This document shows, in pieces, positions 1 to 10,663 of a DNA stretch of 60,000 nt. The notes under the pieces are model-generated. The model saw only the letters and a program-made list of their open reading frames with translations, was not told where the DNA came from and ran no database searches. The stretch is taken from positions 1-60,000 of the forward strand of contig CP021371.1 in the NCBI GenBank assembly GCA_002600635.1. The letters are read 5' to 3'. Both the position numbers and the translations under genes were made by a program. Within the stretch, counting starts at the first letter, position 1. Each line of letters opens with the position of its first letter. This DNA comes from Rhizobium sp. ACO-34A. Its GTDB lineage: Bacteria; Pseudomonadota; Alphaproteobacteria; Rhizobiales; Rhizobiaceae.

Positions 1-401
1 CGGTCAGCCCTTTCAAAAAAGAAATGATATATGAATCTTCTTCTATTTCTAAGAGTCTCTGACTATCAAGGATTAATCCCGATACACAGGTTTCCCGGCC
101 CCTTTGGCAAATCATCGTTTTCAGCGAATGAAATCCTGAGCGTTTGACGAGAAATCGCGCTTATTTCGATAAGTGCTTTAGAGTCAAAGTGATAGGTGAA
201 ATGACGGAAGGGCATGGCTTGTGGATAAGCTGTGAGTCATTTGGCAAGACTGCGGCGTCTTACCACAATCCACAGACCTCTCTTTCGCGTGTCCTCGCTG
301 GTGTCATTTGTGGATAAATCGGCATTTTTCCCCTTGCCTCCCACGCCTGCTGATCGCTACCTCTCTTACTCCCGAATTATCAACAGGCGGCCGAGAACAA
401 C
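1..401. other. oriC: Putative chromosomal replication origin (oriC) region
   Basis: About 400 bases without a convincing gene. Two perfect DnaA boxes (TGTGGATAA, the complement of TTATCCACA) lie at 220-228 and 309-317. A one-mismatch box (TTATCAACA) is at 377-385 and a weaker one (CAATCCACA) at 266-274. The first 80 bases are AT-rich and could serve as an unwinding element. GANTC (CcrM methylation) sites occur at 33-37, 53-57, 181-185 and 234-238. In Caulobacter and Rhizobiales the origin lies next to hemE on one side and the ppsR-maf-aroE-coaE-dnaQ-secB run on the other, which is exactly the run that follows here. hemE itself is outside the window. The call is inference from box clustering plus conserved synteny. 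Confidence 0.75.
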
Positions 402-1223
402 GTGGAGAACCGAAAAAGCTTCTTCCATCTCCACCTGATTTCTGACTCAACCGGAGAGACTCTGATCTCGGCGGGTAGGGCAGCTGCGGCCCAGTTCAAT
501 TCCTATAGCGCCATCGAGCATGTCTATCCGCTGATCCGCAGCAAGCGGCAGTTACTCCCTGTGCTGGAAGCGATCGATGAGGAACCGGGCATCGTGCTCT
601 ACACGATTGTCGATCGCGAACTGGCCAACCTGCTCGAGGCTGGCTGCCGCGATATGGGCGTGCCGAGCGTCAATGTGCTGGAACCGGTGATCGACAAGTT
701 CCAGTCCTATCTCGGCGCTTCGTCGCGCGGGAGGGTGGGCGCCCAGCATGCTCTTAACGCGGAATACTTTGCCCGTATCGAGGCGCTGAACTACACGATG
801 GATCACGACGACGGTCAGGCGCCGGATGGATATGACGATGCCGATGTCGTCATCATCGGTATCAGCCGCACGTCCAAAACGCCAACCAGCATCTATCTCG
901 CCAATCGAGGCATCAAGACCGCGAACATCCCGATTGTCTGCGGAGTGCCGCTGCCGGACAGTTTGTACCGGGCCAGGAAGCCGCTGATCGTCGGCCTGAT
1001 CGCAACATCGGATCGGATCTCCCAGGTCCGCGGCAATCGCGAACTCGGCGTCACTCCCGGTTTCAATGTCAGCGACTATACGGACAGGGCCTCGATTGCG
1101 GAGGAACTGAAATATGCCCGCAGCCTCTGCTCGCGCAACAACTGGCCCCTGATCGACGTGACCCGCCGCTCGATCGAGGAAACGGCGGCGGCTATCGTTG
1201 CCCTGCGTCCGAAGGTGCGTTAA
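402..1223 (+). CDS. ppsR: Pyruvate, phosphate dikinase regulatory protein (PPSR/DUF299 family)
   Basis: 273 aa, the usual length for the DUF299 kinase/pyrophosphorylase family that inactivates and reactivates pyruvate, phosphate dikinase (or PEP synthase) by ADP-dependent phosphorylation and Pi-dependent dephosphorylation. Visible family signatures are the N-terminal [10 protein letters not shown] segment and the mid-protein nucleotide-binding stretch [18 protein letters not shown], followed by [10 protein letters not shown]. The start is GTG at 402, which gives the expected N-terminus MENRK; the last good DnaA box ends only 17 bases upstream, so promoter and RBS lie within the origin region. 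It is the first gene of the rightward origin-proximal run. Family assignment is secure; which target enzyme it modifies is not shown by the sequence. Confidence 0.95.
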
Positions 1224-1263: not shown

Positions 1264-1863
1264 ATGGCAGGAAAGCTGATGCTTGCTTCGGCAAGCCAGT
1301 CACGTCGGATGCTGATGGAGAATGCGGGCCTTCGGTTTGAAGCCGAGGCGGCGCAGATCGATGAGCGCGCGGCTGAGGCCGGATTGGGCGGTGACCCGTT
1401 GTCTCCCGATCGGCTGGCACTGGCGCTTGCCCGGCTGAAAGCGCTCGATGTCGCTTCCAGGCATTCAGGCGCACTCGTGGTCGGATGCGACCAGACCATG
1501 TCCCTCGGTGAAGTCGTCTTTCATAAGCCTGATGATATCGAAGAAGCCCGGCGCAATCTGAAGACCCTGCGCGGCAGAACCCACCGTCTGAACAGCGCTG
1601 TCGTTCTGGTCAGGGACGGTGAGGTTCTCTGGGAAAACGTGTCGATTGCAGAGTTGACGATGCGGGCATTCACCGACGAGTTTCTCGATGGCTATCTGCA
1701 GAGGACCGGGGATGCGGTGTTGAAAAGTGTCGGATGCTATCAGCTGGAGGCTGAAGGAATCCGGCTATTTAATGCGATAAGCGGCGACTATTTCACCATT
1801 CTCGGTTTGCCGTTATTGCCGCTGCTGGAGGAGCTGCGGGTCCTGGGGGAGATTGATGGCTGA
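1264..1863 (+). CDS. maf: Maf-like nucleotide pyrophosphatase
   Basis: 199 aa Maf/Ham1-fold protein. The N-terminal signature [17 protein letters not shown] is a variant of the family LAS.SPRR motif; GCDQTMSLG and KPDDIEEAR follow, then the later conserved [17 protein letters not shown] segment. Maf proteins hydrolyse non-canonical or modified NTPs and have been linked to septum inhibition. It lies 40 bases after ppsR and its stop overlaps the start of aroE by 8 bases, so it is probably co-transcribed with aroE-coaE-dnaQ. The exact nucleotide substrate cannot be read from the sequence. Confidence 0.93.
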
Positions 1864-2716
1864 TTCACGTGAAACATTTGTTAACCAAGCTTTCGTTGTC
1901 GGCTATCCGATAAAGCATTCCCGGTCTCCGCTCATTCACCGACACTGGTTGAAGAGCTTCGGGATCGAAGGCAGTTACGAGCGCGTGGCGGTCAGCCCGG
2001 AAGATTTCGAGGCATTCATTGCCGCATTGAAGACCGGTGCCTCCGGTTTTTGTGGAGGCAATGTGACCATCCCGCACAAGGAAGCCGCATGTCGGCTCGC
2101 CGATGCGCCGGATGCCCTGGCCGAGGAACTCGGAGCCGCCAACACACTCTGGATGGAGGAGGGCAGGCTGAATGCAACCAATACTGACGGTATCGGTTTC
2201 ACCGCCAGTCTCGATGCAGGTCATCCCGGATGGGAGAATGTCGATCGGGCAGTGATCCTGGGTGCCGGTGGCGCCAGTCGTGCCGTGGTTCAGGCGGTGC
2301 GGGATCGCGGTATCGGGGAAATCAACATCGTCAATCGTTCTATGGAAAGAGCGGTGGAACTGGCTGACCGGTTCGGTCCCGCGATCCATGCCCATCCGAT
2401 GGCGGCGCTTGGTGAGGTATGCGAAGGCGCCGGTCTGTTTATCAACACAACGTCGCTTGGCATGGATGGTGAAGCCGTCGATGAAATGCCTTTCGAACGG
2501 CTTCTGTCATCGGCCGTAGTGACCGACATCGTCTATGTTCCGCTGATGACACCGATCCTGAAGCAGGCGGAGGCAAAAGGTCTGGCGACGGTCGATGGTC
2601 TGGGCATGCTGTTGCATCAGGCCGTTCCCGGTTTCGAGAAGTGGTTCGGCCGCAGACCTGTGGTGGATGAGGAATTGCGCAATCTCGTTATCGCCGACAT
2701 GGAGGCGCATGCATGA
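1856..2716 (+). CDS. aroE: Shikimate dehydrogenase (NADP+)
   Basis: 286 aa; reduces 3-dehydroshikimate to shikimate in aromatic amino acid synthesis. The substrate-binding domain is N-terminal ([23 protein letters not shown] with the catalytic Lys, NTDGIGF) and the Rossmann domain follows ([20 protein letters not shown]). GLGMLLHQ near the C-terminus is also typical. I chose ATG 1856 over TTG 1853. The start overlaps the end of maf by 8 bases and the stop overlaps coaE as ATGA. Unusually, a 15/16 match to the parS consensus (1861-1876) lies in codons 2-7, so the N-terminal residues are partly set by a chromosome-segregation site. Confidence 0.96.
1861..1876. other. parS: Putative parS (ParB-binding) site 1
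   Basis: TGATTCACGTGAAACA matches the broadly conserved chromosomal parS consensus TGTTTCACGTGAAACA at 15 of 16 positions (only the third base differs). It lies in the 5' end of aroE, about 1.5 kb from the presumed origin, and the same 16-mer recurs at 10648-10663. Origin-proximal parS sites are bound by ParB for chromosome partitioning; parA and parB are not in the window. Confidence 0.85.
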
Positions 2717-10647: not shown

Positions 10648-10663
10648 TGATTCACGTGAAACA
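10648..10663. other. parS: Putative parS (ParB-binding) site 2
   Basis: Same 16-mer as site 1 (TGATTCACGTGAAACA), 15/16 to the parS consensus, in the intergenic space 36 bases after gyrB and about 10 kb from the presumed origin. Two identical near-consensus palindromes this close to a putative origin are very unlikely by chance. Confidence 0.85.

Follow-up and report, generated by a model that had tools for sequence, protein, structure and literature searches.

Where does replication of this chromosome begin, and which part of the region would be opened first? The question is raised by the left end of the window (the whole stretch of 60,000 nucleotides analysed here, C1:1-60000), where 401 bp in front of ppsR had been described as origin-like from the letters (hereafter the original prediction). 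We found that the hemE border, the GC-skew switch, the DnaA boxes and a cluster of parS-like sites coincide at this place, which supports the description. Judged from this agreement, window 1-401 is most likely the chromosomal replication origin (oriC) of a Rhizobiaceae replicon, nearest to Ciceribacter. The origin itself and its layout are ordinary, being the known alphaproteobacterial oriC arrangement. The best conserved part of the origin, however, is not a DnaA box but a block at 39-77 beside hemE, and most of the analysis below concerns what this block might do.

Position and Borders of the Probable Origin

The genome consists of five contigs (6,284,736 bases in total), and contig C1, which begins with the window, is 4,754,916 bp long. 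The hemE TTG codon occupies the final three bases of C1, and its first base coincides with the final base of the contig. This TTG is the most upstream start possible for hemE, because a TGA two codons upstream across the junction bars an earlier one. In Ciceribacter sichuanensis (L047) the same junction lies within one contig, with identical letters over the compared stretch, so the best reading of C1 is a circle that was opened at the hemE border. With the start of hemE at the very end of C1, the 401 bp at 1..401 make up the entire hemE-ppsR spacer. The original prediction had expected hemE directly upstream, and the divergent hemE indeed begins at the end of C1.

The right border is ppsR (402..1223, + strand; PF03618, 296 bits). 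The gene order ppsR-maf-aroE-coaE-dnaQ-secB that had been read from the translations was confirmed by Pfam, which gives Kinase-PPPase, Maf, shikimate dehydrogenase, CoaE, an RNase_T exonuclease (dnaQ-like) and SecB. Leftward past hemE lie hemJ (UPF0093), rho, mnmE/thdF, gidA, gidB and parAB (hemE, UPF0093, rho and the ParA-type ATPase were named by Pfam, the other genes by reading of translations).

A scan with ppsR returned 56 named relatives, the nearest being Ciceribacter sichuanensis (97%), and hemE is divergent and adjacent to ppsR in 56/56 of them. Adjacency of hemE was also found in 64/70 loci of the order set and 80/90 loci of the class set. The order set comprises 70 loci from 69 of 71 ppsR-bearing genomes (one genome gave two loci; our own genome and one other were left out) and includes two genomes of our own family, while the class set covers 90 of 105 ppsR-bearing genomes (our own, one already included and 13 weaker or fragmentary matches were omitted). 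Within the family the spacer measures 400-406 bp in 51/57 sequences including our own and 347-427 bp in the remainder, with ends taken from tblastn matches extended to the query start and thus uncertain where a match began late (L100 above all). The ppsR start is GTG in 55/57 family sequences. Many of the relatives are near-identical, so family counts here and below are not independent.

A switch of GC skew had been proposed as a check on the origin, and the sign does change at the C1 junction. The 44 samples taken, about 0.87 of 4.75 Mb, comprise 40 stretches of 20 kb, three that divide up the window and one at the left end. From base 1 to 2.24 Mb the skew is positive in 21/22 samples (the remaining one is -0.000), and from 2.34 Mb to the end of C1 it is negative in 21/22 samples (the remaining one is +0.003), which places the second sign change near 2.3 Mb. 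A search for parS-like palindromes with at most two mismatches yielded six sites, of which three have one mismatch and the other three have two. All are within 79 kb of the junction, those on the left reaching out to 78 kb and those on the right to 25 kb; the pattern read backwards gave one match per strand. Two of the sites, at 1861..1876 (at the aroE start) and 10648..10663, are identical (TGATTCACGTGAAACA, one mismatch to the palindrome); the others are at C1:4750431, 4748451, 4676580 and 25296. The dnaA gene lies 565 kb from the origin, and a dnaA distant from the origin is not unusual in alphaproteobacteria.

Several further features of the region were recorded. A second, weaker Bac_DnaA match (37.9 bits; C1:81643-81939) was detected in a 210-codon frame, perhaps of an HdaA-like protein. 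The stretch just right of the window (C1:60001-80000) has a GC content of 44.5%, compared with about 60% in most other samples, and is likely a genomic island near the origin. No Rfam family matched positions 1-1300 at gathering scores, so an RNA reading of the region was dropped.

DnaA Boxes in the Spacer

The boxes of the original prediction were all recovered. Two perfect boxes with the sequence TTATCCACA lie in the same orientation at 220..228 and 309..317 (both - strand), a near-perfect box, TTATCAACA, lies at 377..385, though on the + strand, and a weak box with two mismatches, CAATCCACA, lies at 266..274 (+ strand). Conservation was measured in an alignment of 54/57 spacers (L098-L100 omitted). 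The best conserved box is that at 309-317 (at most one mismatch at the same place in 50/54), compared with 31/54 at the same threshold for 220-228; with at most two mismatches, the boxes at 377-385 and 266-274 are found at the same place in 48/54 and 37/54. Random places in 85-216 reach this looser level in 3%, so all four box places are above background. The last box had been said to end 17 bases before the GTG of ppsR, so near that initiation and ppsR transcription may interfere. In fact 16 bases lie between it and the GTG at 402-404, a distance that is normal for the family.

The perfect box is rare in the genome, with 10 copies of TTATCCACA in 6,284,736 bases compared with 33 for the backwards pattern. 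Two of the 10 fall within these 401 bp (expected 0.0006, Poisson P(>=2) ~2e-7). When one mismatch is allowed, the window contains 9 boxes where 3.7 are expected, and 3 of the 9 are within 1-401.

A Conserved Block on the hemE Side

The first 80 bases had been called AT-rich, and their AT content is 65%. The lowest-GC 60-mer among them, 10..69 (16 G+C in 60), belongs to the lowest 0.09% of the 60-mers of the window and is a candidate DNA unwinding element. Next to hemE there is also a near-invariant family block at 39..77 (+ strand), which is composed of the T-rich TTCTATTTCT at 41-50, a GAGTC and a degenerate box pair. Among the 54 aligned sequences, the modal base reaches 94% over 41-60 and 85% over 61-80, compared with 61% for the whole spacer, and the four DnaA box places are less strictly conserved than this block. 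The pattern of 52-76 is present once in our own genome, and in 51/57 family sequences CAAGGATTA is found at a distance of 62-71 bases from the start codon of hemE. The block is probably the strand-opening segment, the part that would be opened first.

The exact family pattern, AGAGTCNNTGNNTANCAAGGATTAA, was found in 28/121 GTDB family genomes (our own included), once in each, and the backwards control gave one match overall. As a class-wide marker the pattern was rejected, since it occurs with at most two mismatches in 2/289 class genomes, one of which is our own; the other match adjoins respiratory-chain genes (named from translations) and was taken as chance.

The Same Place in Other Alphaproteobacteria and E. 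coli

Motifs shared by the spacers of other alphaproteobacteria were searched with a typed DnaA-box pair as seed. A model found in this way matches some DnaA box by construction, so the result is informative in how far it exceeds shuffles and in which E. coli box it picks, namely the one flanking the DUE. The order set gave the motif.c.gTGGAttac.gggATTa (12.1 bits compared with 7.0 for shuffled sequences with the same seed), and the class set gave.ctGtGaAtaacGGGGAT.a (15.0 bits compared with 6.8). Reversed sequences proved an unfair null, because the reversed element was recovered from them (14.8 and 11.7 bits), and shuffles were used instead. Counts of sites above 6 bits failed to discriminate (75/80 against 69 shuffled in the class, 60/64 against 55 in the order).

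A site above 9 bits was present within 160 bases of hemE in 45/64 order spacers and 46/80 class spacers, and these sites consist of a DnaA-box pair adjoining a T-rich or GTN-triplet strand. Position profiles were built from these 45/64 and 46/80 spacers (best site >9 bits, 30-160 or 45-160 bases from hemE), a selection that favours well-formed modules, and from 51/57 spacers of the family. When the order and class models were crossed, they exceeded the shuffled 95% level in only 40/64 and 41/80 spacers; in the family, the order model did so in 55/57 spacers and the class model in 49/57. In our own sequence both models have their best place in 1-200 at 56..75 (+ strand, TCTCTGACTATCAAGGATTA), and this copy is marginal, with 8.4 bits (order) and 6.2 bits (class) at base 56 compared with 95% levels of 8.2 and 7.1. 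T runs are present beside the TGTGGATAA-sense place in the family.

In 701 bp around the oriC of E. coli K-12, the best match of both models is CCTGTGGATAACAAGGATCC, the box after the DUE, which we take to be R1. It scores 17.2 and 17.6 bits, while the maxima of 100 shuffles are 13.7 and 15.1. Judging from these matches, the hemE-side block corresponds in place to the box that adjoins the opening strand in many other alphaproteobacteria and in E. coli.

GANTC Sites Beside the Module

The CcrM-type site GANTC is dense in the spacer (10 per kb, compared with 1.23 per kb for the genome in 869,917 sampled bases). It occurs as GAATC at 33..37 in the AT-rich stretch and as GAGTC at 53..57, inside the block, and at 181..185 and 234..238. 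The AGAGTC of the block is unchanged in 51/51 anchored family sequences (6/57 could not be anchored). In the first 110 bases on the hemE side, 96 sites were found in the order set, 65 in the class set and 91 in the family, where 37.8, 37.8 and 37.2 are expected; the rest of the spacer has no excess in the order (93 against 89.5), an excess in the class (154 against 115.4) and a slight one in the family (104 against 84.1). When gapped 4-mers of the form XYNZW are ranked over the 42 bases next to the module, GANTC comes out on top in the order set (34/45, where 4.0 are expected) and in second place in the class set (17/46, where 3.8 are expected). The order set suggested the idea, and the class set, which has no genome in common with it, served to test it. 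Several class spacers (e.g. L250 and L209) carry GANTC, as GTGAATC or GTGAGTC, within the half of the module formed by the DnaA box, and the bin from -5 to +9 of the module contains 14 GANTC sites in 46 class spacers.

The presence of GANTC in such origins is not a new finding: the Caulobacter origin contains GANTC motifs according to excerpts of PMC3973325. In the literature searched we found no description of how high GANTC ranks and where it sits next to the opening module, and no paper that pairs GANTC with DnaA-trios. Methylation may have a role at these origin sites, but the enrichment may instead reflect sequence needs of an opening site that have nothing to do with the methylase, a reading to which we give somewhat under an even chance. 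It is favoured by the distribution of ccrM, which was sought in the 80/90 class genomes with a hemE-ppsR spacer and matched in 70/80 (G110, with a partial match of only 43%, was counted as lacking it). The first 110 bases contain one or more sites in 7/11 class genomes without ccrM and in 38/69 with it, so a GANTC-ccrM correlation is unsupported; in the order set ccrM is present in 70/70 genomes searched, so no contrast is possible. Consistent with this reading, Caulobacter without ccrM has a wild-type-like DNA content, and the authors consider CcrM dispensable for initiation control (PMC3973325, in excerpt); in Agrobacterium, depletion or excess of CcrM shifts ori2 and leaves ori1 without significant change (PMC11514494, in excerpt). 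Against it, shuffles that keep composition fail to reproduce the ranks of GANTC, all four letters occur at the middle base of the site in the order set (T16 G11 A20 C3), and the excerpted Caulobacter work reports extra chromosome copies under excess CcrM (PMC3973325).

Is the Block a hemE Promoter?

The block is situated upstream of hemE, at 39-77 bases from the start codon, and a sigma-70-like match overlaps it on the - strand (51 to 24, 9/12), one of 2 such sites in 1-420 where shuffles give 0.5. The block could therefore be a hemE promoter that is kept for expression and is unrelated to strand opening. We regard this as unlikely, in view of the loci that lack hemE in the flank, of which 16 were examined (two with <450 bases of flank). 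The ppsR-side spacer of two such loci has a clear module (L150, 17.2 bits; L214, 22.2 bits), and that of a third a weak one (L242, 9.6 bits); the left neighbour in the three is rho, or a hemJ-like gene followed by rho (by translation resemblance). Among the remaining 13 loci, seven have no site above 8 bits and six have unconvincing sites of 8.2-18.4 bits, some on the opposite strand; some of these 13 spacers may not be origins. Furthermore, the same place in other orders bears DnaA-box letters, and the DUE-flanking box of E. coli is the best match there. A double use of the block, as promoter and for opening, is possible.

Proposed Mechanism and Significance

The best overall explanation, which we consider likely to be correct, is that 1-401 is the origin, that DnaA assembles on it and that the strands are opened at the module 39-77. 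It is highly improbable that the region is only a cluster for DnaA titration or regulation with the chromosome starting elsewhere, since the skew switch, the hemE-ppsR borders, the parS cluster and the rarity of the boxes coincide at 1-401, even though dnaA is distant and the skew comes from samples.

In the preferred reading, DnaA would occupy the boxes at 377-385, 309-317, 266-274 and 220-228, and the complex would extend towards hemE, where the module 39-77 would serve as a dedicated opening site. We infer that DnaA could then touch the degenerate box pair (about 56-75) and capture the adjacent T-rich + strand, upon which 10-69 would melt, the helicase would be loaded and two forks would depart. 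Any part played by GANTC methylation would likewise be an inferred step. What the analysis itself shows is the location of the region with its borders, skew and boxes, the conserved block, the box pair that many other alphaproteobacteria have in the same place, and the enrichment of GANTC.

A broader proposal, which we advance tentatively and consider less likely than not, is that alphaproteobacterial origins share an inherited hemE-side opening module that corresponds in place to the joint of DUE and box in E. coli, with the CcrM site GANTC built in, as GATC is in E. coli. In Rhizobiaceae the box would have decayed into the family block, in which an invariant GAGTC separates the T-rich strand from the contact site, and methylation or a GANTC reader (GcrA) might tune melting and not whether initiation occurs.

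The likely origin of this chromosome is now placed exactly, and a 39-bp block, whose conservation far exceeds that of the textbook DnaA boxes, indicates where strand opening in Rhizobiaceae might be sought. The puzzle of GANTC is also sharpened: the site is kept in the presumed opening part, yet CcrM loss is reported, in the excerpts cited above, to spare initiation control in Caulobacter and ori1 in Agrobacterium. The block offers a small, defined target for probing this puzzle.

Comparison With Known Origin Systems

The oriC of Sinorhizobium meliloti has reportedly been mapped to the same hemE-ppsR place. Our spacer resembles the alphaproteobacterial hemE-COG1806 origins in its borders, its length of about 400 bp, its several DnaA boxes and its AT-rich part; among these, the Caulobacter Cori and the origin of Rickettsia are both bordered by hemE and COG1806, and five CtrA sites together with one IHF site are described for Caulobacter (PMC1914354, in excerpt). 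Unlike Caulobacter as described there, our spacer has neither a CtrA full site (TTAA-N7-TTAA) nor an IHF match when exact patterns are searched. CtrA full sites are found in 22/64 order, 9/80 class and 1/57 family spacers.

A second comparison is with the basal unwinding system (BUS), which consists of a DnaA box and DnaA-trios, the rule being at least three 3'-NAN-5' triplets within 16 bp of the box (PMC8287927, in excerpt). As in the BUS so described, a box or tandem boxes adjoin repeated triplets next to an AT-rich part. Beside the module, GTNGT is present in 35/46 class sequences (8.9 expected), while our own order has T runs and our own family TTCTATTTCT. The trio rule holds in 0/51 anchored family sequences, our own included (box taken at the module place, + strand read), in 4/45 order and in 12/46 class sequences, compared with 30.4, 11.9 and 15.9 in shuffles. 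T-phase runs of at least three, on the other hand, occur in 51/51, 42/45 and 32/46 sequences (shuffles 22.5, 24.6 and 20.0). A strict DnaA-trio reading of our block was rejected on the count of 0/51 and on its degenerate box. Our own family thus differs from the BUS in having T runs instead of the required trios at the module place, and because the trio rule does not hold in the family we do not class the block as a BUS; at most, it may function like one.

The third comparison is with the DUE and flanking box of E. coli. The box of our sequence is degenerate (CTGACTATCAAGGATTA), and GANTC is found here where E. coli has GATC. The two may share their arrangement, in which CAAGGAT comes after a TGTGGATAA-sense box and the T-rich strand lies on the 5' side of that box.
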